DNA of 64,000 nucleotides from an uncultured Poribacteria bacterium (GTDB lineage Bacteria; Poribacteria; WGA-4E; WGA-3G), in NCBI GenBank assembly GCA_951828515.1, contig OX639992.1, positions 62,001-126,000 on the forward strand, written 5' to 3'. Positions 39,199-60,293 of the stretch are shown here, in pieces. The position numbers were made by a program, and so were the translations under genes. The notes under the pieces are model-generated. The model did no database searches. It was not told the DNA's origin and saw only the letters and a program-made list of their open reading frames with translations. The first letter of the stretch is position 1, and each line of letters starts with the position of its first letter.

Positions 39199-39528
39199 TA
39201 TGTCCTTTAATATACTGATTTTTCTAAGTTATGTCAAGCAAACATTTCAGTTCTACAGAGATGCCACCCCTACGGGGTTGAAGAGGAAACAGGTCAAAAA
39301 TCCGGTTAGAATCTCTCACACAAGAGAAGACAAAGGCTAATGCCAAAAACTTTACACACTCTTTCAGCACTGTTGTGTTTGATTTTTCACATTTTTTTCC
39401 GCTATGCAACCTTTTGCCTTTTAAATCGCGTCCTTAATAGTAACAGCAGTACGATGGTCGCGCATTAAATGAAGATTAAGAATTTAATCGGGTAATTTTC
39501 ACCAGTACTCGGTGCGGTTGGGAAACCG

Positions 39529-41840: not shown

Positions 41841-42052
41841 AAACGAGAGTTCAATATAAAAATACAGCCGAGTTCTCCAAAAACAACCCGTAAATTCTGC
41901 TCTGCACTATATCAAGAAAAACATTTTAGTGTAGTTGTGATATAATTTTTCCATTATTTTTCTCGTTATGCATCCTTCTGTTCTTTAAATTACGTCATTA
42001 ATTAGTGACAGCAGTACGATAGTCGCGCGCTAAAAGCGTACATCTGTATCTT

Positions 42053-42205: not shown

Positions 42206-45151
42206 ATGAAAAACGAAGATGCTCAACTGGTTAACCAATTTTTGACAGGTGACGAGAGTGCCTTTACGACACTGGTACAAAAATACCAGAAAAGTGTCCA
42301 CGCGCTCGTATGGCGGAAAGTTGGCGATTTCCATACTGCAGAGGAACTCACACAGGACACCTTCCTCAAGGCTTACCAGAAACTTGGAACATTGAAGAAT
42401 CCGAATCGGTTCGCTGGATGGCTCTATGTCATCGCTGATCGGACGTGTATTGACTGGCATCGAAATCGGAAACCCTCAATGGAATCCTTGGAAACCACCA
42501 GTGGAGAAGAGATTGAAGAATCCTCCTATCGGTACTACGAAGACGAACAACGTGAGGAAGCCTCTATTGAACATCGTCGTGGACGCGTAAAAAATCTCTT
42601 AGAAAAACTGCCGGAGAGCGAACGCACGGTTGTGACACTTCACTACCTTGGGGAAATGACATATAAAGCGATCAGTGAGTTTTTAGGTGTGTCTCCAAAC
42701 ACAGTTAAAAGTCGTCTCCAACGTGCCCGGAACCGTTTAAAGCAGGAAGATGATATAGTGCGCGAAACTCTTGGCAATGTAGATTTACCTATGGCTTTCA
42801 CCGAAAACATTGTAAAGCAAGTTGCCAATCTAAAGCCGGTAACTCCTACGAATAGCAAACCCTTAATACCTTGGGCAATCTCTGCGGCAACAGCCATTTT
42901 CATTTTTCTTATAATAGGTGTAGGGTCACAATACCTCGCCCGATTTCAGAAACCGTACAATCTGAACTCACAATCGGAAACCACGGTTGAAATCATCGAT
43001 GCTCCGATTGTCCTTGATACACAAGCAAAATCCGATTTACGGAACCAAGCCGGACGTTTTGATACCACTGGTAAAAGTGGCGGTGCCGGATCACAAATCT
43101 CAGAACCCGTTGTATCTGCGGCTGCACAAGTAGAGAAGGAAACGCTCCCATCAACAAGGCAACAGTGGGTACAAACAAACGCTCCAGAAGGAGGGACAGT
43201 ATCTGGGTTACTCCTAAGCTCGACTGGAGATATCTACACTGCTGCCCCAGCAGGTATCTACAGATTAGTGCCAAATGCGTCTGTATGGGCACTCGTGAGT
43301 CCCTTACCTCCAGAGGCTTCCTCAGACTACAGTTGGAAACCAATGGCAGAACATAGCAGCACGCTCTACCTTGTATCCACTGATAAAGTGTGGGCTTCAA
43401 CCGATAGCGGCGAGAATTGGAAATCACTTGGCACGCGCCCAAAAGGAAATGCCATTGGACTCGTGGTAACGGATGAAGGTCTATATCTTGCCCTTGAGAA
43501 CCAGATTTTCCGATCTGAAAACGCAGGTAAACAGTGGATTCCGATGAACGATGGGATAGTAAACGAAAACACCCACATTCTCACACTTATTGCTATAGAA
43601 AACAGTGTGTTTGCAGGCATGAACCATGGACTCTACCGTTCGCGTTCAAGGACATGGGAAAAATTGCCGGTGGATACCACAAAAGCGATTCACTCCTTGG
43701 CAGTCTCTGAAAACGGTCTCTATGTCGGGACAGGTCCCGATCTTTCTCAATTAAACACTCCTGAAGGCGTTGGGGCGTACATCGGTCAAATTATGAGCAG
43801 CGACACCCCAAGTTCGTGGGAGATCTTCCACTCGACCGACTTGGGTGATACATGGACGGAGCTAACACCGAAAAGCACTGCGTTCACAATGAAAATGTCC
43901 CCGGGTGCTAAAGTTTTGGCGGCTGGAGAAACGTTGTTAGTATTAGGAATCACCACATTCCGCTCCACGGATGGCGGGAAAACCTGGACCGACTTCGGGT
44001 TTGACAAGTCAGACATGAATTCGATGATGAACTCGATGACACTCAGTATGTTCCCTACATTAACAGTGGACAAAAACACATTTTTTAAAGTTGGGATCCG
44101 TGACGGACTCATCCGTTCAACCGATGGTGGCGAGTCGTGGCACCCGTTTACGAAAGGGATAGTCGGCACCCGAGTGTTTGACTTGGTAACTTTCAAAAAC
44201 ACACTCTACGCAAATACCGGCTCAGGTATCGCCAAGTCCACTGATAGCGGTGAATCTTGGGAAACCCTTTCCATGAATTCCGCAGAACTCGAAATTAAAT
44301 CGTTAGACATGACCAGTCCTACGGATATGTTGCTTTCCCCCAGATTAGCGATCTCTGGTGATGTACTTTACGTCATCTCATCGGCATTAAGCTCACAAAA
44401 TGAACCTCGCCTCTTTCGCGTTTCGATGCGCGGAAACGTGTTAGTGCCTATCCAAGTACCGACCACTTTCGGTGGCGATCTCTCCATAACAGACATAATA
44501 GGTCTGGCGAATGTAACTCGGCAGATGGAAAAATTCTCTGGCGCATTCGCAGTCAGTGGCGAGACGTTCTATACAGAATATAAAAGACGGCTTTTCCGGT
44601 GGAAACGCGGGGAGCCAGAGTGGTTCAATACCGGATTGATGGATAAAACCAAACTTCCTGACAATTATGCCGATGCTGCGAAAAATAACCAGATACGTAT
44701 AGCACTTGCTGTTTCAGGAGAGACCGTCTATGTTGGAAAACGGGACGGACATCTCTTTCAGTCGTTTGATAGTGGCAACACATGGAAAGACCTAACGTCA
44801 AACCTACCCCTACGCTTCAAGCACTTTAAAGGGATAGTCTTTGCGGGTACAACGATATACGTCGCCACAGACGCAGGGGTCTTAACCTCAGAAACGGGTG
44901 AACATTGGCGATCGATAACCGATACAACTGGGACGTATACCGTTATAGATCGCATCGCTGTGGCTGGTGCTTCAGTTTACGGTGCTGGCGATGAAGGTGC
45001 CTATCACTTGAATCGTCGTGGTGAATGGAAAAAGATTTCGCCAGAAGTGCCAGATAGCGTCATTTCTCTCGTAATCAATGGCAATAAACTCTATGCTGTA
45101 ACAGAAAAGCGCGGGATGTTTCAGGTCTCGCTTGAAGAGGAAAACGACTAA
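42206..45151 (+). CDS. Membrane-tethered ECF sigma factor fused to an Asp-box beta-propeller
   Basis: A 981-residue chimera. Residues 8-85 are sigma region 2 (DFHTAEELTQDTFLKAYQKL, FAGWLYVIADRTCIDWHR) and 126-178 are region 4 (LPESERTVVTLHYLGEMTYK, VSPNTVKSRLQRARNRLK), together an ECF sigma factor. Residues 221-240 form one membrane segment. From about 320 a large BNR/sortilin-type propeller has at least eight Asp boxes (STDSGENW, STDLGDTW, STDGGKTW, STDGGESW, STDSGESW, SFDSGNTW). No anti-sigma gene is near. Likely topology: sigma inside, propeller outside, so a signal would need to free the sigma part. Followed at once by an S55-type peptidase gene. A paralogue is at 55441-58437. Confidence 0.88.
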   Translation: MKNEDAQLVNQFLTGDESAFTTLVQKYQKSVHALVWRKVGDFHTAEELTQDTFLKAYQKLGTLKNPNRFAGWLYVIADRTCIDWHRNRKPSMESLETTSGEEIEESSYRYYEDEQREEASIEHRRGRVKNLLEKLPESERTVVTLHYLGEMTYKAISEFLGVSPNTVKSRLQRARNRLKQEDDIVRETLGNVDLPMAFTENIVKQVANLKPVTPTNSKPLIPWAISAATAIFIFLIIGVGSQYLARFQKPYNLNSQSETTVEIIDAPIVLDTQAKSDLRNQAGRFDTTGKSGGAGSQISEPVVSAAAQVEKETLPSTRQQWVQTNAPEGGTVSGLLLSSTGDIYTAAPAGIYRLVPNASVWALVSPLPPEASSDYSWKPMAEHSSTLYLVSTDKVWASTDSGENWKSLGTRPKGNAIGLVVTDEGLYLALENQIFRSENAGKQWIPMNDGIVNENTHILTLIAIENSVFAGMNHGLYRSRSRTWEKLPVDTTKAIHSLAVSENGLYVGTGPDLSQLNTPEGVGAYIGQIMSSDTPSSWEIFHSTDLGDTWTELTPKSTAFTMKMSPGAKVLAAGETLLVLGITTFRSTDGGKTWTDFGFDKSDMNSMMNSMTLSMFPTLTVDKNTFFKVGIRDGLIRSTDGGESWHPFTKGIVGTRVFDLVTFKNTLYANTGSGIAKSTDSGESWETLSMNSAELEIKSLDMTSPTDMLLSPRLAISGDVLYVISSALSSQNEPRLFRVSMRGNVLVPIQVPTTFGGDLSITDIIGLANVTRQMEKFSGAFAVSGETFYTEYKRRLFRWKRGEPEWFNTGLMDKTKLPDNYADAAKNNQIRIALAVSGETVYVGKRDGHLFQSFDSGNTWKDLTSNLPLRFKHFKGIVFAGTTIYVATDAGVLTSETGEHWRSITDTTGTYTVIDRIAVAGASVYGAGDEGAYHLNRRGEWKKISPEVPDSVISLVINGNKLYAVTEKRGMFQVSLEEEND

Positions 45152-45186
45152 TGTTCCATAAAATCTCTGTCTTTGGAGGAATCAAA

Positions 45187-47181
45187 GTGAAACGTATTTT
45201 CATTTTTGCCAGCATTGCTATTACGATGCTATATCAACTCGGTTGCTCTCCTGATGAACAGCAAACACAACATGAAAATCCAATAGCTGACGATTCAATA
45301 GCAAAATTTAACGCCCCACGCTTTGTCGGAGACGTTGTATTGGAAAATATGTACGAGGATGAAGTCCGGAAACTGGCGAGTAAGACACCGCTGGAAATCA
45401 TTACCGTGCTTGAAGGCACCAGCAAGGTTATCCTTCAGGCTCGATTTCGATCAGTTCGAGATGGTCCCTATGGATCACCCGTCTATGAGTGCGAACTGAT
45501 TGACGAATCAGCAGAGGCTTTAGGTGGTGTTGCGGCAGGAATGTCGGGCAGTCCTGTCGGTCCGCCGGGTCGTGTTATGGGTGCTCTCGCTTTCGCGTAT
45601 CTGTTTAGTAAGCCGCCGTATCGGTTCCTGGTCACACCTATTGATTATATGGAGGAAGCGATCGAACACCCAACGTTTGGTGAGTTTCTGGAGGAAGAGG
45701 CGGCACCCGCGGCACCCGCACTGGCGATTAATTCCTTGTATGCACCCGTTAAAACACCTATGATGATTACAGGGGTTCAGCCTCACAGGATTCAAGAACT
45801 GTCTTCATATTTCTCCGATTCAAGATTCAATTTCGTTGAATTGCTTGGCGATATTGGGGGTGCCCCTGGAGCACCGCCTGCAGGTGCCACAACAAAACTT
45901 TCCGCGGGAGATATGATTGGTGCCGCCGTCGCTACAGGAGATGTTACGAACCTCATTGGTTTTGGAACAGTGACACAGGTTTATGACGATACATTTGTGG
46001 CGTTCGGTCACCCTTTCTTGGCTGATGGAAAGTCTACATTACCGGTATACCGAGCTGTGACGCATGGAACCATGCCCAGCCTGGTGTTCTCAACGAAATC
46101 TGTCTCGGCGTATGGAAACCCGATCGGGACAATAACGAAAGACCTATATCCTGCGATTGTAGGCGAACGCGGCCCGGGACCGCCAATGATTCCAGTGAAA
46201 CTCTCTTATCGTCCTGTTAATAACACGCCAATAGAAAAACACCACGTTGTGGCTTATGGGCAAGAATGGGCGATTCCGTTCGTTGCGGCAGTGACAATGG
46301 ATGCAATTCGGCTGGAGAGGAACGCGGCAACAGTTGAAGGGACTGTGACACTTCACTTTCAAGAAACCGAAACTGTCTATACAGAAACGTTTCGGACAGC
46401 CTCTCCAAACCCGTTTTTCGATGTGTTCATAGGAACGGGTTCAATTATTACTTCGTTCACTAATACACTTACAAACAGTGCTGGCAAAGCGACCTTGAAA
46501 GCGGTGTCGATCTCTATCAAAGACAAACCGCAAATCGCCAAAGCCGAGATTGACGAAATTAGTGTGCCTGCTGAAGTGATGCCTGGGGAGAGCCTCACGG
46601 TCTCGGTTGTGCTACTTCCGCACTGGAGTACTGCTGGTGCAGAGCGGACGATTCAAAGAGAAGTTATACTTGACATCCCTGACGACTTCCCTGTGGGTGA
46701 AGCAACCCTCACGGTTTCCGCCGAAGCATCGGCTGACGACACGGAATTTGAACAACTTTTCGGCAACATTTTGGATGACATCTTGGATATGGAGGAAGAA
46801 GAAGAAAAACCGTTGCCAAGGAATCTCGACGAACTCATCCAGCAGAAGATAGAAGATCAGATGGATGCGGGGTTAATCACAATAACGCTTGAACCAGCGG
46901 GCTTTGCCGGATTACCGCTACCGGAAGGTTTCCCGTTGAACATACCGGAAGCTGGCGATGCAGATGAAATTCCAGAGGGTTTTCCATTCATAGAAGGTTT
47001 CCCACTACCAGAAGACCTCCCAGTTCCAGATGATTCTGAGGAGGAGAACGTAGTGGAAACTGAACTCATTATTGAAGGCTTTATCGTGACTGGATCGAAA
47101 GAGGAACAGATTACCATTACAGTCGGAGACATAGGAGACGGTGTAGTGCCAATAGAAGGCTTAGAAGGCGCACAACAATAA
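45187..47181 (+). CDS. SpoIVB/S55-peptidase-like lipoprotein
   Basis: A 664-residue exported protein. GTG at 45187 is chosen: GGAGGA lies six bases upstream and the first 20 residues (MKRIFIFASIAITMLYQLGC) form a lipoprotein-like signal; the ATG at 45151 would add 12 residues before it. The S55 hallmarks are GGVAAGMSGSPVGPPGRVMG followed by ALAFAYLFSKPPY, and later DTFVAFGHPFLADGKSTLPV. In Bacillus SpoIVB such a peptidase starts intramembrane release of a sigma factor. The C-terminal third is acidic, with Pro-rich repeats (LPEGFPLNIPE, EIPEGFPFIEGFPLPEDLP). Whether it is proteolytic is untested. Confidence 0.75.
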   Translation: MKRIFIFASIAITMLYQLGCSPDEQQTQHENPIADDSIAKFNAPRFVGDVVLENMYEDEVRKLASKTPLEIITVLEGTSKVILQARFRSVRDGPYGSPVYECELIDESAEALGGVAAGMSGSPVGPPGRVMGALAFAYLFSKPPYRFLVTPIDYMEEAIEHPTFGEFLEEEAAPAAPALAINSLYAPVKTPMMITGVQPHRIQELSSYFSDSRFNFVELLGDIGGAPGAPPAGATTKLSAGDMIGAAVATGDVTNLIGFGTVTQVYDDTFVAFGHPFLADGKSTLPVYRAVTHGTMPSLVFSTKSVSAYGNPIGTITKDLYPAIVGERGPGPPMIPVKLSYRPVNNTPIEKHHVVAYGQEWAIPFVAAVTMDAIRLERNAATVEGTVTLHFQETETVYTETFRTASPNPFFDVFIGTGSIITSFTNTLTNSAGKATLKAVSISIKDKPQIAKAEIDEISVPAEVMPGESLTVSVVLLPHWSTAGAERTIQREVILDIPDDFPVGEATLTVSAEASADDTEFEQLFGNILDDILDMEEEEEKPLPRNLDELIQQKIEDQMDAGLITITLEPAGFAGLPLPEGFPLNIPEAGDADEIPEGFPFIEGFPLPEDLPVPDDSEEENVVETELIIEGFIVTGSKEEQITITVGDIGDGVVPIEGLEGAQQ

Positions 47182-47196
47182 TTTCGGAACGCTATT

Positions 47197-47226
47197 GTAT
47201 GGACAGGTATCCTCGCCTGTCCATAC
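47197..47226 (+). terminator. Hairpin between S55 gene and lipoprotein gene
   Basis: An 11-base stem GTATGGACAGG / CCTGTCCATAC with an eight-base loop follows the peptidase stop by 15 bases. No T-tract follows, so it may limit rather than end transcription into the next gene. Confidence 0.5.
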
Positions 47227-47267
47227 GGCATCAAACCCCATCACTGATAACACGAAAAGGACAAACA

Positions 47268-48059
47268 ATGCAGTATTCTCTACGTTTCACAGTTTTTATA
47301 TTTTTGGCTATCATTACTTGGCAATTGTTGGGATGCTCAGAAGACCCCGACCCTGACACAACGTCTGTCGAAAAAGTTATTGCCGAACCTATACCCGCCA
47401 AACCCACACCCGAAGACACGTTTGCGAAACTAAAGATGTTGTTTCCGAAACCCATTTTTGATGGAGATTTCACAGCCATGGGTGAGGTGACAACTTCTAA
47501 AACATATTTGGACTTTCTTACCGAAGAATATCGGACGGAAAAACCGTTTAAAACGTTGGCAGACTACCTCATTGTAGCAAAGCCTGCTCCGGAAAGATAC
47601 AAACCCTTTTTGAAAGAATCTATCGGGAAATCTAACGAAGAAGACATCGCCATTATTCATCAGATGACCTTAAATTACCGCTGTGCGAATGCAATACTCT
47701 ATCAGATGGTGCACGGTGAAGACGATAGAAAAGGTGCCCTCAAGGCGATATTTGCTATGATCGAAAAAAGACTATCAATCTTTGATGAAGCACCTGTAAA
47801 GGCATGGATGGAAATACATCTACCCAATCAAGATCAAGCAAAAGAATTCCTCACTGCCCTTGAACATTTCGTAACTGAAACCGAAGAGAAGGACGCGCTT
47901 TTGATACAAGAACAGTTTGCGCAACACGGAAAAGATGACGGGCTTTTATGGCTCGCCGTGCACAATCCTGCGCTAACCGCAGAGATTCTTAATAATTTCA
48001 CAAATACGAATGTGTTTCTGAGATGGACTGAGGGCACTTTTTTTCAACAAAATCCATAG
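47268..48059 (+). CDS. Lipoprotein of unknown function
   Basis: A 263-residue lipoprotein. The signal peptide ends LLGC with lipidated Cys23. A Pro/Thr/acidic linker is followed by a helical domain (DYLIVAKPAPERYKPFLKES, ANAILYQMVHGEDDRKGALK, AIFAMIEKRLSIFDEAPVKA). No family was recognised. AAAAGGA precedes the ATG at 47268; an upstream in-frame ATG at 47199 would cross the hairpin and lacks a ribosome-binding site. Position between the S55-like gene and the TonB receptor suggests a role in the same envelope system. Confidence 0.75.
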   Translation: MQYSLRFTVFIFLAIITWQLLGCSEDPDPDTTSVEKVIAEPIPAKPTPEDTFAKLKMLFPKPIFDGDFTAMGEVTTSKTYLDFLTEEYRTEKPFKTLADYLIVAKPAPERYKPFLKESIGKSNEEDIAIIHQMTLNYRCANAILYQMVHGEDDRKGALKAIFAMIEKRLSIFDEAPVKAWMEIHLPNQDQAKEFLTALEHFVTETEEKDALLIQEQFAQHGKDDGLLWLAVHNPALTAEILNNFTNTNVFLRWTEGTFFQQNP

Positions 48060-48393: not shown

Positions 48394-50868
48394 ATGAAAT
48401 TTCGCTTATATCCAGTTCTGTTTATTGTACTCATGATGCCGTTCTCTGTTTCCGCTGAAACGGAGAGTCCTAAAGAAGATGAACCCCGAAAAACGAAAAG
48501 AAGCATCTGGCAGCGAGTTTTCCCGCGCACCGGTGATATAGAAGGCACTATCTATCAGCACGACACCGACACACCGTTAGTTGAAGCAGAGGTGCGCATT
48601 GTTGAAACCGATCAGCAGCAAAAAACGGGTAAAGACGGCACATTTCGGTTCATTGAAATTCCCGTCGGCACATATACGCTGTCCATATCCTATCCAACTT
48701 ACAACACACCCACTAAAATCCCGATTGAGATTCGCGCCGGTGAGACGCTTCAAAGGCGATTTTCCATCAATACAGAAGGCGTGTTGGTCGAAACCCTCGA
48801 TAGTCGGGAGGCGGCAACACGACTTGACCCCATTCTTGTAGAAGGGCAGCGTCTACTACCGCCGACAATTAGCCGTAAAGAGATTCAAGGCAGCGAGTTG
48901 ACACGAATTCCCGGGACTGGGCGTGATGCGCTCAAGGGACTCACGACGCTGCCGAGCATCGGTATCCCCAACGATTTTTTCGGTATCCTCTATATTCGTG
49001 GGAGTGCACCGGGGGAGACACTCCTCTATTTTGACAGAACGCCACTCGGTTACCCGTTCCACTTCGGTGGACTCTTCTCAACGATTAATTCACATAGTAT
49101 TGAAGATATCCAGATTTACGCTGGTGGGTACGGTGCCGAATTCGGATTAGACTCACAATCGGTTATTGATATCCGCTCGCGTGAACGCGTGAAAAAACAG
49201 TGGGCAGGCGTAATAGACTTGAACATTTTCTCCCCATCTGGTTTCATTGAAGCCAAAATTGGAGACAAGGGTTACGCGTCCGTTGCCGGGCGATTCAACA
49301 CCCTTAATCTCATATTAGGACCTTTCTTTGATTGGAGCTTTCCGACCTGGTCGGACTATCAACTCAAATTTGCATATCAACTTACGCCAAAGCACCACCT
49401 GACGCTCAACGGCTTAGGCGCGACAGATCATTTTGATTTCTCTAACTTTGGGTCGGAAGAGATCGAAGACGTAGGTGACTTCTCCGCCTATTTCAAAAAC
49501 GGGTTTGAAGCGGAAGGCATTCATCTCCGTTCTGATTTCACTGATAAACTCACATCCCACTTATCCGTTACGCGTTCCCACAATTTTCTCAATATCAATC
49601 TCGGTGGCGGCACAAGCCAAGATGATAGACTTACCGATGAAAAATTTATCTACAACGTCCAAGTTAACACCCCAATGTATACCCTTCGCGAAGACGCGTT
49701 TTACAAATTAACACGGACGTTTCAACTTGAACCGGGACTCCTTCTCGCCATCAGCCCGACCAAAAGCCATACACACACCTCTTCTCCAGAAAACATAGAT
49801 TTTGCTGATGACGAGGAACCGTCATGGATGCAGAAACTTGACGATTTTAATTATACGTTTCGGCGTGCTGAGGGGTACCTACAGGCGCGTTATGATCCGC
49901 TATCGTTTCTGTCAGTCGCACTCGGTGCGCGGTTTGATTATCTCAATTTGACAGAAGAACTCTCAATTCAGCCGCGCGGGAGTCTCAGTCTCACACTGCC
50001 AACAACTTCCACACTCCGATTCGCTTACGGCAGATACGAACAGAGTCCATTAGCGTATCAGGTGCTAAAGGCGGATGGAAACCGAGACCTAAAATCGAGC
50101 CTGACCCAGCATTATGTTATGGAATTAGAACACGAATTATCACCACAAACGGAACTTAAATTCGCTGTTTACTACAAGGATATGCAAAGATTAGTCACGA
50201 GAACTGTCAATCTTGACGCATTTTTTGATGACTCGAACGCAGTGGTTACAACTGCATATCTCAATCAAGGAAGTGGGTTTGTGAATGGAGCAGAAGTGTT
50301 CCTGCGACATCGTATTAGCGAAAAGTTTTTCGGATGGGTATCTTATGCCTACACCCACGCCGAACGGCGTGAGACACCCGACGATGTCTACCAACCATTC
50401 CTCTTCGATAACACACACATTGTTAGCATTGTTGCCAACTACAGTCCAACGACAAAAACTGAGATCGGCGCGAAATGGCAATATGTAAGCGGCACTTCCG
50501 CGGTTCCCCTAAGCACACTTCTGATGATTCAAGACCCTGTGACTCTTGGCATGCATCCACTTCTCTCTGATGTTGCAGGATTGATTGTCCCAACGGAACT
50601 TCAGGCGTATCATCGCTTGGACTTCCGTTTTACGCGCAAAAGAAAGTGGTGGGGCCTTCCTGTGACGATGTTTACCGAAATCTGGAATGTCTACAACAGC
50701 AAAAACAAGATAAGGTTCAATTTCGCCGACAAACTCGTGAAGGAAATCAACGCGGCAGCGGTTGAGAATGCAGAAGACTTCGAGTTGAAGTTGGAATCAC
50801 CCACTGAATATACGAGTCTTGTGCGATTCCCTTTTAGTATCAATGTCGGAATCATATATGAATTTTAA
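48394..50868 (+). CDS. TonB-dependent receptor
   Basis: An 824-residue outer-membrane receptor for energised uptake of large or scarce solutes. Signal peptide about 1-21 (ending SVSA). Residues 47-130 are a carboxypeptidase-regulatory-like domain (GDIEGTIYQHDTDTPLVEAE, GKDGTFRFIEIPVGTYTLSI). The plug follows (IPGTGRDALKGLTTLPSIGI, LYIRGSAPGETLLYFDRTPL), then beta-barrel strands ending in FSINVGIIYEF. Substrate unknown. The gene follows a lipoprotein and lies 3.2 kb from the sigma-propeller gene, a layout that recalls FecI-type control of a receptor. Confidence 0.9.
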   Translation: MKFRLYPVLFIVLMMPFSVSAETESPKEDEPRKTKRSIWQRVFPRTGDIEGTIYQHDTDTPLVEAEVRIVETDQQQKTGKDGTFRFIEIPVGTYTLSISYPTYNTPTKIPIEIRAGETLQRRFSINTEGVLVETLDSREAATRLDPILVEGQRLLPPTISRKEIQGSELTRIPGTGRDALKGLTTLPSIGIPNDFFGILYIRGSAPGETLLYFDRTPLGYPFHFGGLFSTINSHSIEDIQIYAGGYGAEFGLDSQSVIDIRSRERVKKQWAGVIDLNIFSPSGFIEAKIGDKGYASVAGRFNTLNLILGPFFDWSFPTWSDYQLKFAYQLTPKHHLTLNGLGATDHFDFSNFGSEEIEDVGDFSAYFKNGFEAEGIHLRSDFTDKLTSHLSVTRSHNFLNINLGGGTSQDDRLTDEKFIYNVQVNTPMYTLREDAFYKLTRTFQLEPGLLLAISPTKSHTHTSSPENIDFADDEEPSWMQKLDDFNYTFRRAEGYLQARYDPLSFLSVALGARFDYLNLTEELSIQPRGSLSLTLPTTSTLRFAYGRYEQSPLAYQVLKADGNRDLKSSLTQHYVMELEHELSPQTELKFAVYYKDMQRLVTRTVNLDAFFDDSNAVVTTAYLNQGSGFVNGAEVFLRHRISEKFFGWVSYAYTHAERRETPDDVYQPFLFDNTHIVSIVANYSPTTKTEIGAKWQYVSGTSAVPLSTLLMIQDPVTLGMHPLLSDVAGLIVPTELQAYHRLDFRFTRKRKWWGLPVTMFTEIWNVYNSKNKIRFNFADKLVKEINAAAVENAEDFELKLESPTEYTSLVRFPFSINVGIIYEF

Positions 50869-51939: not shown

Positions 51940-52124
51940 ATTTCAAGCAATTCTCCTATTTTTTTGATAAAAATGCAGATTTTTCGCTTTATGCACCCTT
52001 TCTTGCTCAAGGCGGTATCATTAATTATAAAAGGGGATCATACACCACTTCACGGAAAATGGTTTCAAAAGAACCCAATCCTCTGAGCGGCGCACGAAAG
52101 GGCATCCCTACCGTAATATAGCGT

Positions 52125-52241
52125 TATAGTGAAGCCCATAATTACCTATACACCAACGGAGGACGAGGTTAGAAACCTCGCCAGCGAAGGAGAGGTGTGT
52201 TGTGTTCCCAGAGTGTTCACATATTTTCTGGCTTCACTATA
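52125..52241. repeat. TATAGTAAA-type miniature element, copy 5
   Basis: Inverted ends tatagtgaagccc and ggcttcactata. The central hairpin is GACGAGGTT / AACCTCGCC-like. Its right end touches the ribosome-binding site (aaaggag) of the next gene. Confidence 0.8.
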
Positions 52242-52255
52242 AAGGAGAAATCACC

Positions 52256-53668
52256 ATGTTAATGACGTTGATTAAAAAAGAGATGATGCATCATATCCTG
52301 AGTGTCCGGTTCATCGCGCTTCTTCTGATGTGTCTTTTGCTCGTCCCGCTCACACTCTCTATCAATCATCGGAACTATCGCCAAAATCTTGTTGACTATC
52401 AGGAAGCTGTTAAACTGGCGAACATTGAAGAAACGACAGTAAACTTGAAGATGCCATTGGAACCAGACTTGGAGGTCTCCAAGCTCATCCTCAAACCAAC
52501 ACCGCTGAGCGTTTTCGCAAATGGATTAGCTGACGCCCTGCCAAGTTATCTTGGAATAACCCGCAATGGCGTTACACAGGGTCCACCCGCCCTGGTCTCG
52601 GCATCCCTCTCCTATCTGTTAGGGCACCTCGACTTTCTATTTATCGTCGGAACGGTTTTCAGTCTGTTGGCACTTCTGTTTACGTTTGATGCCGTTGCCG
52701 GGGAACGAGAAGCGGGCACTCTTCGGATCACCTTATCAAATTCCCTTCCGCGCGATGTCTTCCTCTGGAGCAAGTTGATTGGCGGATACCTTGTGTTCGT
52801 AGTTCCATTCTTGATCTCGCTTCTATTCGGTTTACTTGTGCTCGTCTGGCAAGGATTTCCCCTCGGGGAACCCGATATTTTTCCACGAGTGCTCATGCTA
52901 ACTTTTGCTTCACTACTCTACATTGCAGTGTTTTTTGCGATCGGAACGGTGATCTCTACCTACTTAGATAACTCTAAGACGGCACTCATCTTCGCCTTCA
53001 CGGTCTGGGTGTTCGCAGTGCTGATCACACCACGCGTTGGTTTCCTCGCAGCGAAGATCATTGCTCCAACACGGACCTCACAGAGCATCTATATGGCAAA
53101 GAAAGCCATGCGGGATGATTTCAATGCTGAACTTGACAAGCAAAAAATGAAATTCATCATGGAGGTGCCCCCAGATAAGAACGGTGCTCGCCATATAGGT
53201 GGGGAGATTGCGGAAAAAATTGAGGAACGCATGAAACCTCTGGAAGAAGAACAGCGATCAAAATTTCAGGATCAATCTAACGAACTTGACCGGAACTACC
53301 AACGTGAAACAGAACAACAAGAACAGATGGGTGAGACCCTCTCCCGAATATCACCTACCTCTTCGCTCATCTATCTCGCTACAAATTTAACACAGACGGG
53401 AAAGGGGACAAGAAGCAACTACTCTCAAGCAGGTGATCGCTATCATGACATGCTCCATACAGATGTGTTCAGTAAAATTAGGGATCATGTCACTGCAAGA
53501 ATAATTAGACCAGAGGATACTGTCACAATCACGCAACCTCCTCGCGTGGAAATCGCAACCTTAGATGAGACCTTCCGTGAATCGGTGGTGGACGTGCTAC
53601 TTCTCTGTTTCTTCGCAGTCGTGCTGACTACAGTAGCGTTTCTGAAATTCTTCCGATCCGATATTTGA
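52256..53668 (+). CDS. ABC-2 type permease with large extracytoplasmic domain
   Basis: A 470-residue membrane protein. TM1 is near residues 16-36, a soluble domain of about 90 residues follows, then TMs from 118 with the coupling motif TFDAVAGEREAGTLRITLSN, further TMs, a second long charged loop (about 265-425, MKPLEEEQRSKFQDQSNELD) and a last TM at the C-terminus. The GERE-x-GTL motif marks NatB/ABC-2 (DUF3526-type) permeases. No ATPase gene is adjacent. The ATG follows aaaggag at the edge of a miniature element. Function unknown; two relatives are at 58792 and 60317. Confidence 0.8.
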   Translation: MLMTLIKKEMMHHILSVRFIALLLMCLLLVPLTLSINHRNYRQNLVDYQEAVKLANIEETTVNLKMPLEPDLEVSKLILKPTPLSVFANGLADALPSYLGITRNGVTQGPPALVSASLSYLLGHLDFLFIVGTVFSLLALLFTFDAVAGEREAGTLRITLSNSLPRDVFLWSKLIGGYLVFVVPFLISLLFGLLVLVWQGFPLGEPDIFPRVLMLTFASLLYIAVFFAIGTVISTYLDNSKTALIFAFTVWVFAVLITPRVGFLAAKIIAPTRTSQSIYMAKKAMRDDFNAELDKQKMKFIMEVPPDKNGARHIGGEIAEKIEERMKPLEEEQRSKFQDQSNELDRNYQRETEQQEQMGETLSRISPTSSLIYLATNLTQTGKGTRSNYSQAGDRYHDMLHTDVFSKIRDHVTARIIRPEDTVTITQPPRVEIATLDETFRESVVDVLLLCFFAVVLTTVAFLKFFRSDI

Positions 53669-54903: not shown

Positions 54904-55218
54904 AATATGTATCTCGTCGATACTGCGAGGCTTACACACTGTACACTTCTCCGGATGCTGTCTAAGCAAACAACAGAAGTGCGGCATTCGCGTAAGCCTT
55001 TAAAAACCCAGGTTTTTCTTATTTTTTCTTGGATTATGCACCTTTTTGTCTCAAAATCGTATCTTTAATTATAGAAGGGCAATGCAATGTTCCAAATTTA
55101 AGGGTTTGAGTTTTACTATTAAGTCTGGTATACTCCGTACGAAGAACCAAAAAAACAGCCTCGTGTGGACGTAATGACTAACGGGTGTATGGTCGATATA
55201 GCGAGACTTTTTCTATAT

Positions 55219-55440: not shown

Positions 55441-58437
55441 ATGGAAACAAAAAACGATGTTCAACTGATTCGTAGGATCTTGTCCGGCGATGACGCGGCA
55501 TTTAATGCCTTAGTCCGAAAGCACCAAAAGGGTATTCACGCCCTGGCGTGGCGAAAAGTTGGCGATTTTCACATCGCTGAAGAGATTGTCCAAGATACTT
55601 TCCTCCAAGTCTACAAGAATCTCGCGCAACTCAAGAACCCGAATCAGTTTTCCGGATGGATGTATGTCATCGCCAGCCGACTCTGCCTTAAATGGCTTCA
55701 AAAGAACAAGAACACATCTGCGATGCACTCATTGGAGGACACACCTGTGGCAGAAATCGAAGAATCCTCTTACACACATTACGTATCGGAACAACGGATG
55801 ACAGAGAGCACGGAGCGTCGTCAGGAACTCGTCAAAAAACTTCTGGCAAAGCTACCGGAGAGCGAGCGCACCGTGGTAACACTCTACTTTCTCGGAGAGA
55901 TGACAGCGAAAGAGATTGGGAAACTCTTAGGTGTGTCGGTGAACACGATTAAGAGTCGACTTCGCCGGGGACGGAAACGTTTACAGGAACAACAAGAGGA
56001 GCTCTTGGTTCGCGAAACACTCGGGAGCATCCCATTCCCTGCCCACGTGACGGAGCGTATCATGGAACAAGTGGCTAACATGCAACCGACCCCGGCTCCG
56101 GTTGGAAAGCCATTGGTGCCATGGATGGCTTTCGGTACGGCTGTGGTTTTTGTTATCTTGATGCTCGGCATGAGCGATCAGTATCTTTCCAGATTTCAGA
56201 AGCCGTATAGTTTCGAGGCGGAATCTGAACCCACAATTGAAATTGTCGATGCCCCTATTGTCCTTGATATTGTATCAAAGCCATCTATACGCAATCAGTT
56301 CGGACGGGCTGCCACCCCGGGTAAACGCAATAGTGCTGGTATTCAGGTCTCTGAATCAGTTATGAGATCCAGTGCACTGGAGGATTCTCTTAGGTTTGGG
56401 ACTTCCTCGCAGTGGACGCAGGGAAATGCGCCGCCAGGGGGACGTATACAGGATATGTTCGCGACATCCGATGGAACTGTCTATGCTGTTGCGCCAACAG
56501 GAATGTACAGATCAGAGGTAGACGCAACTGCATGGACGCGCGTTAACGCAAGCGTTCCGATTGGCAATTCTCGAATGCCGATGGCAGAGCATAATGGAAG
56601 CCTTTATATCGCCTCTGTGGATGAAATACTTACGTCAGATGATCGCGGTGAAACGTGGAATACGCTGGGTCCCCGCCCAAAAGGACACACAGTTGGACTC
56701 ATCATCACGGATGAGACGCAAGCACGTTCTACGATGTATCTGGCACTTAGAGATGAAGGGGTTTTCCGATCCACAGATGGCGGAACACACTGGCATCCGC
56801 TTAACGATGGATTGACAGGCAAAACAATTTCCACAATGGCTGCTATAGGAGAAACAGTATTTACGGGGACAGGAAGGGGTCTCTACCGTCTCGATTCAGG
56901 TATGTGGGCAAAGTTGCCGGTGGAAACATCAAGAGCCGTCTATTCTTTGGCAGTGTCCGAGAATAATCTCTATGTTGGAACCGGTCCCGATCTGTTGGGA
57001 TTCACGCCGATAAAAACAGGGCAGGTGGTGCCAAAAGCCGAGTCGCATGTACTTAAGCTTTTCCATTCGGTTGACTTGGGAGCGTCTTGGACTGAAATAA
57101 CACCGAGTTATCAATCTGATAATCATGGGATACCCTCTGGCATAACAGTTTTGGCTGCCGGTGAAACGCTCTTCACGTCAAGTGTCAAACACCAATATCG
57201 TTCAACAGATGGTGGACACACCTGGACAGAACTGTCAGGAGACACGAATATGATCATGATCAATAGTCTTCCAGCTGTGGCGGCGAACGAGAGGACATTT
57301 TACAGAACGGGCCCATACGGCATTTTTCGGACAACGGATGGGGGTAAGTCATGGGTTCTATTTGTAGATGGGATGGCAGGCACACGCCTAAAGGATATGG
57401 TTGTCCTCAACAACAGATTCTACGCGCATACAGGTTATGAGGTTTATCAATCAACCGACGAAGGTGTTTCGTGGGAAAAACTTGTGATTGACGGGGGCTT
57501 TTCGGTGGAATCTACTAATTTTGAATGGTCAGAAAAAGATAAGAACGAGGTTCGCGTCCATATCTTTTTTTATTCAAAACTGATAGTGGATGGCAATTGC
57601 CTTTATTTTCTTACACGTGAAGACAACAACCTGAAAATTTTTCGCTTATCTACAGATGGCAATACACTCAGTCTCGTTCAAGGCATACCTACCTTCGATG
57701 ATAAAGCATTAGCCCCCGAATTGTGGATAAGTGGCACGGGGACAAAGCCAACGCACGCATCCGATAGCTCGAAAAAAGACAATGAGCCAATCACTACATC
57801 TTTTGTGCCTGGAGGTGTGGACATCAAAACGGTTGCAGTCAGTAGTGATGTATTCTACGTGGAATACAAACACAGTCTTTTCAAATGGAGACTTGGAGAT
57901 CCAGAGTGGATAAATACTGGATTGATAGATACGAGTCACATGTCCGATGGTAATTCCAGAAAGGGACTCAAGATAGCGGTTTCGGGAGAAACTGTCTATG
58001 TAGGCAAGCGAGATGGTAAATTATTTCAGTCACTTGATGGCGGGAACAGTTGGAGAGACATCACACCAAACCTGCCTCTTGGCTTTACCTGCTTCAATGA
58101 GATAGCGTTTGCAGGAACGACCGTCTATGTGTCAACAGATGTGGGAGTCTTGAGTTCACAAACCGGCGAACACTGGAGCGTGCTAACCAATAGCGTGAGA
58201 GCACACACTATCATAGACAGATTTGCAGTAGAGGGCACGAAAGTTTATGGTATCGGCGATACAGGAATCTATCATTTGGACGCTCGTCGTCAATGGAAAC
58301 AGGTTGCTTCAGAAGTGCCAGATGAAATCAATGCGCTCGCCATCGCTAACAATAAGCTTTATAGTGCTACTGAAGATCGGGGGATATTGCACATCACTAT
58401 TGATGAAGAATCTTACAACGAATTATCTCACAAATAG
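55441..58437 (+). CDS. Second membrane-tethered ECF sigma factor-propeller chimera
   Basis: A 998-residue paralogue of 42206-45151. Sigma regions: 8-86 (DFHIAEEIVQDTFLQVYKNL, FSGWMYVIASRLCLKWLQ) and 132-182 (LPESERTVVTLYFLGEMTAK, VSVNTIKSRLRRGRKRLQ). One membrane segment lies at about 226-244. The propeller starts near residue 330 with Asp boxes such as SDDRGETW, STDGGTHW, SVDLGASW, STDGGHTW, TTDGGKSW, STDEGVSW, SLDGGNSW. Just after the membrane both chimeras share RFQKPY and DAPIVLD. A weak GGAG lies upstream. No peptidase is adjacent; ABC-2 permease genes follow. Confidence 0.88.
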   Translation: METKNDVQLIRRILSGDDAAFNALVRKHQKGIHALAWRKVGDFHIAEEIVQDTFLQVYKNLAQLKNPNQFSGWMYVIASRLCLKWLQKNKNTSAMHSLEDTPVAEIEESSYTHYVSEQRMTESTERRQELVKKLLAKLPESERTVVTLYFLGEMTAKEIGKLLGVSVNTIKSRLRRGRKRLQEQQEELLVRETLGSIPFPAHVTERIMEQVANMQPTPAPVGKPLVPWMAFGTAVVFVILMLGMSDQYLSRFQKPYSFEAESEPTIEIVDAPIVLDIVSKPSIRNQFGRAATPGKRNSAGIQVSESVMRSSALEDSLRFGTSSQWTQGNAPPGGRIQDMFATSDGTVYAVAPTGMYRSEVDATAWTRVNASVPIGNSRMPMAEHNGSLYIASVDEILTSDDRGETWNTLGPRPKGHTVGLIITDETQARSTMYLALRDEGVFRSTDGGTHWHPLNDGLTGKTISTMAAIGETVFTGTGRGLYRLDSGMWAKLPVETSRAVYSLAVSENNLYVGTGPDLLGFTPIKTGQVVPKAESHVLKLFHSVDLGASWTEITPSYQSDNHGIPSGITVLAAGETLFTSSVKHQYRSTDGGHTWTELSGDTNMIMINSLPAVAANERTFYRTGPYGIFRTTDGGKSWVLFVDGMAGTRLKDMVVLNNRFYAHTGYEVYQSTDEGVSWEKLVIDGGFSVESTNFEWSEKDKNEVRVHIFFYSKLIVDGNCLYFLTREDNNLKIFRLSTDGNTLSLVQGIPTFDDKALAPELWISGTGTKPTHASDSSKKDNEPITTSFVPGGVDIKTVAVSSDVFYVEYKHSLFKWRLGDPEWINTGLIDTSHMSDGNSRKGLKIAVSGETVYVGKRDGKLFQSLDGGNSWRDITPNLPLGFTCFNEIAFAGTTVYVSTDVGVLSSQTGEHWSVLTNSVRAHTIIDRFAVEGTKVYGIGDTGIYHLDARRQWKQVASEVPDEINALAIANNKLYSATEDRGILHITIDEESYNELSHK

Positions 58438-58791: not shown

Positions 58792-60293
58792 ATGCTAACG
58801 ACCCTCATCCGGCAAGAACTCCTGAGTTATCTGATGACCTTCCGGTTCGCCGCCGCCGTCTTTATTATGTTATTGCTGGTTGTCACCAATACCAACGTAC
58901 TCCTCGAAGACTACGAGCAGCGACTCGCAGGCTACAATACGGCTGTGAAAACACACCAACAGCTCCTACGCACATCAAAAACCTATTCAGACGATGTATT
59001 GGTTGTTAACCGCCCCCCAACCCTTTAAGTATTTTCAACGTCGGTCTGGATAAACGGATCGGGAACCTCGTTGAGATATCTATCGACTTTGTTCCGACCC
59101 TCTGGGATGCCCATACACACGGCGGAGATAATCCGTTTCTCAATGTTTTCACATCCATGGATCTCGTCTTTATCTTTGAAGTCGTTCTTAGCCTCATCGC
59201 ATTCATGTTTGCCTACGATGCCATCGCAGGCGAACGTGAGCAGGGAACCTTACGTTTGCTCCTGACACATCCACTTCGGCGGGGGCATATCCTGATTGCA
59301 AAATACATCAGCGCAATGCTCTGCCTGCTCGTACCGCTCTTGCTGAGTCTACTTTTCGCACTGATTTTGCTAACCACCTCTCCCTCTTTTTCGCTGAGCA
59401 TACACGATTTTCTCTGCCTCGGCGGGATTATTCTCTCTTCCCTCGCCTATTTGTCGGTTTTCTACCTCATCGGCATGCTGATTTCCGCATCAACGCGCTC
59501 CACCAGCATCGCACTCATGCTCTCCATGTTCGTCTGGGGGTTTTTAGTTATAGCATACCCAAATATGATTCTTACCGCAATTGAAACCACGCCACCGGCA
59601 GGCACCGGGCTTTCCACTTACAATCAAATCAAACAGATATGGGAAGAATTTGACACGGAACGCAAGCAGTTTCTCATTGATGACAAAATGCCAGGCGAGG
59701 ATTGGACTTTTGACATCATGGGGCGCGGCTACAGTTTTCGTTCCAGTAAAGACAATTTATCAGCATTGCTGTATTACAACCAACTCGGATTATACTATGA
59801 GACGCTTCTCGACGAATCTCAACCCCAAGTGCCCCACGCCCAGAACTATTATCGCTTCGTGGGCAGACGCACACTCGACATCGCCAACAAAACATGGATC
59901 GTCCGCAAACCCGCTCTGGAGGTAATTTACGTCCAGCCAGCAACACTGGAGACATCCTGGTTAAAACTCTCGCCCGTTGGGATCTATGATACCGCAACAC
60001 AAGCCTGGGCAGGTACCGATATACGCGGAGTCCGGGACTTTTTTGATGCCGCTCGACGCTACCGACAGATTGTCACCGACTACTTCTACGATACCGATGC
60101 CTTTGGATCCCGACAATGGTTCTCCGCAGACAAGGGAGCGGCGGATTGGACCAGACTACCCCAGTTCTCTTTTCAAAGAAACGATGTCGGGGTAAATGCA
60201 AAACGCGCACTACCGAACCTCTTTCTACTGCTAATGATTAACGCTGTTCTGTTCACAATAACTTTTCTGGTTTTCCTCAAAATCGAGGTATAA
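58792..60293 (+). CDS. ABC-2 permease, frameshifted at a C6 run
   Basis: Two frames make one permease. Codons 1-78 give TM1 (FRFAAAVFIMLLLVVTNTNV) and end RPPTL-stop. The next frame, entered at a run of six C (59013-59018), continues PLSIFNVGLDKRIGNLVEIS and FMFAYDAIAGEREQGTLRLL through five TMs to LVFLKIEV. The join mirrors the intact paralogue at 52256-53668 (KPTPLSVFANGL). The 0 frame reads CGC CCC CCA, a possible slippery heptamer for -1 frameshifting; a sequencing error in a homopolymer or a true mutation is equally possible. No ATPase adjacent. Confidence 0.75.

Follow-up and report, generated by a model that had tools for sequence, protein, structure and literature searches.

Can the sensor and the transcription factor of a membrane-crossing signalling system be one and the same protein? 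The question is raised by a gene at 42206-45151 of the window, the 64,000-nucleotide stretch of Poribacteria DNA analysed here, in which the initial annotation had seen an ECF sigma factor, a single membrane anchor and an extracytoplasmic β-propeller joined in one chain. This architecture is well supported, and the parts of the encoded protein are arranged as follows (coordinates are those of the window).

42206-45151, plus strand: fused ECF sigma-TM-double β-propeller protein, 981 aa, ATG start (ORF, Pfam, AlphaFold2, Foldseek)
42272-42472, plus strand: sigma region 2, residues 23-89 (Pfam PF04542, Sigma70_r2, 5e-15)
42584-42739, plus strand: sigma region 4, residues 127-178 (Pfam PF08281, Sigma70_r4_2, 3e-18)
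42749-42862, plus strand: cytoplasmic linker of about 40 residues, 182-219, with no recognisable anti-sigma domain
42866-42922, plus strand: single predicted transmembrane segment, residues 221-239 (hydrophobicity and position in paralogues)
42926-43060, plus strand: conserved juxtamembrane segment, residues 241-285, consensus QYLxRFQKPYSFEAxSEPTIEIIDAPIVL (paralogue alignment)
43166-45139, plus strand: tandem Asp-box β-propellers, GH74-like, residues 321-978, the proposed sensor (Pfam, AlphaFold2, Foldseek)

Sigma regions 2 and 4 are directly linked and both lie above the Pfam cut-off, and the protein passes the NCBIfam sigma70-ECF superfamily model TIGR02937 well above its cut-off, in agreement with the intact regions first described. 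The hydrophobic segment, originally placed at residues 221-240, lies at 221-239 and is the only strong one in the chain, with a Kyte-Doolittle peak of 2.28 against at most 1.35 elsewhere. The peak alone is within chance, as the maximum in 500 whole-protein shuffles was 2.79, and the charge bias across the segment is weak; the peak is significant because it recurs at the same place (220-243) in 30 paralogues. The propeller, initially assigned to the BNR/sortilin type, gives a Sortilin-Vps10 match at residues 539-651 (Pfam, 8e-13) and contains seven strict Asp boxes, S-x-[DNE]-x-G-x-x-W, at residues 398, 437, 543, 587, 638, 678 and 853, where shuffled versions of the protein contain 0.04 on average. 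The eighth box, at about 895 (SETGEHW), is degenerate, and the initial count of at least eight was thus slightly generous.

The AlphaFold2 model of the full protein, made from an alignment of 11 sequences, has pLDDT values of 71-83 for sigma region 2, a poor sigma region 4 and values mostly of 80-90 for the propellers (321-978), with residues 166-318 of low confidence except for short helices. A second model, of the N-terminal module with 30 sequences, gave a similar result, with pLDDT below 50 for residues 178-300. Low-confidence, unfolded stretches are found on both sides of the hydrophobic segment in place of a soluble domain, and a disordered tether is predicted between the segment and the propellers. 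Foldseek matched the full model to GH74 enzymes of the PDB, which comprise two seven-bladed propellers (E 2e-22, TM-score by target 0.63), and at lower rank to BT4663 and BT4673, sensors with a periplasmic propeller; the fold of the N-terminal module matched SigW, AlgU and RpoE. A PDB sequence search with the propeller returned generic BNR and Ycf48 proteins only, and no GH74 protein. A cytosolic anti-sigma domain in the linker was considered and rejected: it gave no profile or PDB match apart from one weak match to a TM peptide. The membrane topology, with the propellers on the periplasmic side, is a prediction from sequence.

The initial annotation described a single protein, which is one member of a large modular family; architecture and family are near certain. 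The genome, a Candidatus Poribacteria of 5.85 Mb in one contig, gives 63 Sigma70_r2 matches. Among the encoded proteins of more than 380 residues, thirty have a hydrophobic segment at 220-243 and align with the focal protein nearly gap-free to about residue 300, sharing a sigma-linker-TM-juxtamembrane module. Their C-termini are diverse: 16 BNR propellers and a truncated one, three LRR, two WD40, one each of Kelch, PD40, C-type lectin, M16-like and redoxin, and three with no Pfam match. Eight further long sigma-domain proteins lack the TM segment and continue into DnaN, FtsZ, FtsZ-DnaE, M61-PDZ, redoxin or unassigned domains. Of the 30 TM members, 25 have surface-type repeat or lectin domains, against none of the eight others (Fisher p 2.6e-5), which indirectly suggests that the segment does anchor the protein and that the C-terminus lies outside. 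Within the TM segment the letters vary among paralogues while hydrophobicity is retained. Members with unrelated sensors have the juxtamembrane consensus in common, and the PYS core of that consensus persists in other families of the same order; the simplest reading of this conservation is that the segment may serve as a shared partner or processing site. One of the paralogues lies in the same window.

55441-58437, plus strand: second sigma-TM-propeller paralogue, 998 aa, with ABC-2 permease genes downstream at 59157 and 60317

Several sigma-domain proteins without a sensor of this kind were also observed. A sigma-FtsZ-DNA polymerase III alpha fusion of 1352 aa (G000:C1:2920008-2924066, L064:3902-7960) has PHP, alpha and finger domains and a C-terminus shorter than that of stand-alone DnaE; it recurs nearly full length, at 77-82% identity, in 9 of 12 other same-genus genomes searched, and these relatives also have separate FtsZ and DnaE genes. 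A 406-aa fusion to the FtsZ GTPase domain (G000:C1:1584464-1585684, L033:12465-13685), which lacks a TM segment, has similar ORFs in most same-genus genomes searched. Sigma is joined to a complete DnaN sliding clamp in a 570-aa protein, likewise with no TM segment (G000:C1:1589095-1590807, L034:3096-4808). Three short sigma-family ORFs of 113-269 aa, with neither sensor nor TM segment (L055:12849-13544, L065:4344-5150 and L067:2374-2712), are probably truncated copies or remnants; two of the three have promoter sites upstream.

Relatives of the focal protein at E <= 1e-20 occur in 57 of 60 related genomes, some of the matches covering just the sigma part. When the linker-TM-juxtamembrane part of the module was scored as a profile over 85 Poribacteria genomes, 68 of them matched. 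The module is present in every genome of the focal family, in 1 to at least 53 copies (scoring stops at 53), and two other families of the order have 1-3 copies in most of their genomes; among the 85 genomes it is absent from a third family of the order and from other classes. The low-copy members of the other families are mostly Asp-box propellers as well, which makes the propeller form the probable ancestral one and the variety of sensors a later development. A scan of named genomes with near-exact patterns found 18 related loci, all in Poribacteria MAGs. Other same-genus genomes have the fusion intact, as do other families of this order, so the two parts are not split in all relatives and a local fusion artefact is ruled out. 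Comparison of the focal gene with five relatives gave dN/dS values of 0.07-0.11 for the sigma part, 0.02-0.17 for the juxtamembrane segment and 0.19-0.24 for the propeller, the larger dS values being rough owing to saturation. The low dN/dS points to purifying selection on the sigma part and supports a working sigma factor. Recent gene conversion was rejected as the source of the conserved juxtamembrane segment, since dS there is not consistently below that of neighbouring segments.

The upstream regions of the family genes share the motif TTATGCAmC-N16/17-CGTC(T/A)(T/C)TAA, a predicted promoter. ECF promoters are marked by AAC at -35 and CGT at -10 (PMC8103513); in TGCAmC-N16/17-CGTC the CGT agrees with this hallmark and the AAC only in part. 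The window holds the following sites and a likely target.

41966-42004, plus strand: ECF-like promoter of the focal gene, TTATGCATCC-N17-CGTCATTAATTA (leave-one-out PWM score 26.8)
51989-52027, plus strand: second promoter copy, upstream of the ABC-2 permease gene (PWM site)
52202-53668, plus strand: ABC-2 family permease, likely target gene (Pfam PF12679 and promoter site)
55034-55071, plus strand: promoter motif of the second sigma-propeller gene (PWM site)

The promoter occurs in forms such as CGTCTTTAA and CGTCACTA. First-pass k-mer and regex searches missed it in many genes in which the PWM detected it. The leave-one-out PWM score exceeds 17 upstream of 21 of the 38 family genes, and 17 of the 38 have no recognisable site within 350 bp; shuffled upstream regions (n=1,140) reach 14.1 at the 99th percentile and 17.9 at most. 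Outside the training set, 12 of 16 focal orthologues or close paralogues in other genomes carry the promoter, placed some 100 or 57 bp ahead of the start. Genome-wide, a strict pattern gives 41 matches against 4 for the reversed pattern. At a PWM score above 20 there are 69 sites in 654 kb of the genome, compared with 0.7 in shuffled sequence and 0 for the reversed motif, a figure that is not a genome density because the loci were partly picked around family genes and sites. Of the 41 strict sites, 11 are situated no more than 1.5 kb upstream of a sigma-family gene. Others precede likely targets such as ABC-2 permeases, ABC exporters and PD40, Kelch and LamG-type secreted proteins, identities mostly read from N-terminal sequence.

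A few further matches stand apart. A strong copy at 39402-39440 (plus strand) of the window has no clear gene behind it and is possibly left over from a copy since lost, because relatives hold tandem sigma-propeller genes at this place. A minus-strand match at 52262-52293, within the beginning of the ABC-2 gene (ATGCATCATCTCTTTTTTAATCAACGTCATTA), has near-identical copies at G000:C1:4868528 and in other genomes, which suggests a small repeat rather than a promoter. Two near-identical genes at G000:C1:562953 and 577741 (L224 and L225) lie behind strong sites (MFDFPKTLHQLHLFEADGVLYAADIEKVRVVE...) and have additional opposite-strand sites just upstream; their products look like peptide-maturation enzymes.

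How such a protein might work is suggested by IutY of Pseudomonas putida, which consists of a cytosolic ECF sigma, one TM segment and a periplasmic domain, and whose sigma is freed by Prc and RseP (PMC5411451); truncated forms of IutY are constitutively active (PMC5411451). By this analogy the Poribacteria protein is likely to be a one-protein transmembrane sigma switch, first tethered and then released by intramembrane proteolysis. The cytoplasmic sigma would be joined covalently through one TM helix to the periplasmic double propeller, the sensor, and no separate anti-sigma factor would be used. At rest the tether would hold the sigma unproductive. A signal reaching the propeller would lead to a cut in the conserved juxtamembrane segment, an RseP-like M50 protease would then cleave in the membrane, and the freed sigma would transcribe from TTATGCAmC-N16/17-CGTC promoters, both its own, in a positive feedback, and those of envelope and secretion genes. 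Computation establishes the architecture, its conservation and modularity, selection on the sigma part, the promoter and its co-distribution with the family; topology, the tether as an off state, signal sensing and proteolytic release are inferred. Signal-driven release is proposed because of the IutY precedent (PMC5411451) and because the genome encodes one RseP-like M50 protease, with an HELGH motif and PDZ domains. The proposed lack of a separate anti-sigma factor agrees with where the zf-HC2 genes lie in the genome. All seven zf-HC2 anti-sigma matches lie beside short stand-alone ECF genes, and Pfam found none within the focal protein or near its gene, as the initial annotation had stated for the neighbourhood.

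Rather unlikely, yet the strongest of the alternatives, is that the sigma acts while still membrane-bound: a signal-induced conformational change or clustering of the propellers would let the tethered sigma recruit RNAP at the membrane in the manner of one-component regulators of the ToxR or CadC type, with no proteolysis. The long disordered stretches predicted on either side of the TM segment would give the necessary reach, and a cognate site-1 protease was not found. Against this, IutY, the closest characterised analogue, requires RseP (PMC5411451), and members with unrelated sensors share a conserved juxtamembrane segment, as expected of a processing site.

Another possible reader of the promoter is one or more of the stand-alone ECFs. 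The genome also contains about 17 short ECF genes, and a promoter match by itself names no reader; the fused proteins would then be targets, decoys or inactive relatives. This is improbable in view of the purifying selection on the fused sigma domains, the sites directly upstream of the fused genes and their orthologues, and the way in which site counts follow the fused module. Over 85 genomes the strict site count correlates with the module count, capped at 53, at a Spearman coefficient of 0.87 (kinship ignored). The coefficient is 0.86 for the 38 genomes of the genus and 0.77 for 18 genomes of a second genus, while a weak correlation with module count (0.33) is seen for the control pattern too. 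The 17 module-free genomes have on average 0.5 strict sites against 0.8 for the control pattern, a background level. Within the genome the distance between -10 elements correlates with that between sigma domains (Mantel r 0.44, 0 of 5000 permutations), a correlation that inheritance after duplication could give too; no single sigma residue segregating with the -10 variant was found in the family. Sigma function and its link to the promoter are well supported by computation.

The genes that follow the focal one bear on a further proposal, concerning the protease.

45151-47181, plus strand: lipoprotein overlapping the focal stop codon (TAATG), with a GMSGSP motif (ORF; sub-threshold Peptidase_S55)
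47199-48059, plus strand: small lipoprotein, the more conserved downstream neighbour (orthologue neighbourhoods)
48394-50868, plus strand: CarboxypepD_reg and TonB plug receptor-like protein (Pfam; similar genes follow the sigma gene in relatives)

SpoIVB takes part in the release of pro-sigmaK in Bacillus. It is very doubtful that the first of these lipoproteins, which resembles SpoIVB and the S55 peptidases, serves the focal protein as its own site-1 protease: the TAATG translational coupling, the GMSGSP motif, the weak Peptidase_S55 match and the SpoIVB role speak for it, but the match (16.6 bits over 28 residues) is under the Pfam cut-off of 25, the gene is missing beside orthologues of 84% identity, and the genome has just one other close homologue of it, with none beside the other paralogues. 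Because it adjoins only some focal orthologues, the lipoprotein is not a general part of the system, and no site-1 protease was identified. Least credible of all is a wholly cytoplasmic protein in which the hydrophobic segment is no anchor, as in the WD40-fused ECFs of Planctomycetes (PMC8567305): two TM-family members do carry WD40 and the peak alone is within the shuffle range, but the segment keeps its position in 30 paralogues and its hydrophobicity as the letters change, is missing from the DnaN and FtsZ fusions and is flanked by unfolded stretches, and the structural matches are to secreted GH74 enzymes and periplasmic sensor propellers.

A tethered switch released by proteolysis, the reading favoured here, has known relatives. 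Sigma-TM-periplasmic hybrids have been described before, and a sensor and a sigma in one protein is not a new idea because IutY already combines a sigma, one TM segment and a periplasmic domain. IutY, an ECF243 sigma/anti-sigma hybrid of cell-surface signalling, has the same one-chain layout with no separate anti-sigma factor; its periplasmic part is an anti-sigma/CSS domain partnered with IutA, whereas the Poribacteria protein has an unrelated BNR double propeller, and the Poribacteria sensors are interchangeable and number about 30 per genome. The actinobacterial ECF48, ECF52 (SCO4117) and ECF53 have C-terminal extensions with a zinc-finger anti-sigma and TM helices, and ECF52 has an extracytoplasmic carbohydrate-binding domain (PMC8999054). 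In these groups the zinc-finger anti-sigma lies between sigma and TM; in contrast, the Poribacteria proteins have at this place a linker of about 40 residues with no such domain. The WD40-fused ECF sigma factors of Planctomycetes (PMC8567305) are by description likewise an expanded ECF family with C-terminal β-propeller repeats, whereas most of the Poribacteria members have Asp-box propellers and other sensors are swapped onto the same module. The Bacteroides hybrid two-component sensors BT4663 and BT4673, found as structural matches, similarly carry a large periplasmic propeller and a regulator on one chain, but their propellers belong to another family and their output is of kinase type and not a sigma factor. 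In the papers searched, Poribacteria were not found mentioned together with 'ECF sigma'. The novelty lies in the scale on which Poribacteria use the design, in the swapping of sensors on one conserved cassette, in the conserved juxtamembrane segment and in a promoter tied to the family.

A wider picture is possible, if tentative, in which the family forms a cassette network: one sigma-TM-juxtamembrane module would carry dozens of surface sensors and, through one processing signal and a near-identical promoter code, would feed their cues into one shared envelope and secretion regulon, each sensor gene being under positive feedback as well. Two proteins are usually needed to control an ECF sigma factor across a membrane, and single-chain versions are known from scattered cases only. 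In an order of uncultured, largely sponge-associated bacteria the single-chain device is seemingly standard, with tens of sensors per genome. The combination of a sigma, a TM segment and any sensor is a natural modular scaffold for studying the off state of a tethered sigma and its release. What the propeller, LRR, lectin and Kelch sensors detect may be the sponge matrix or neighbours, and with a readable promoter code the regulons of unculturable organisms could be predicted from sequence.
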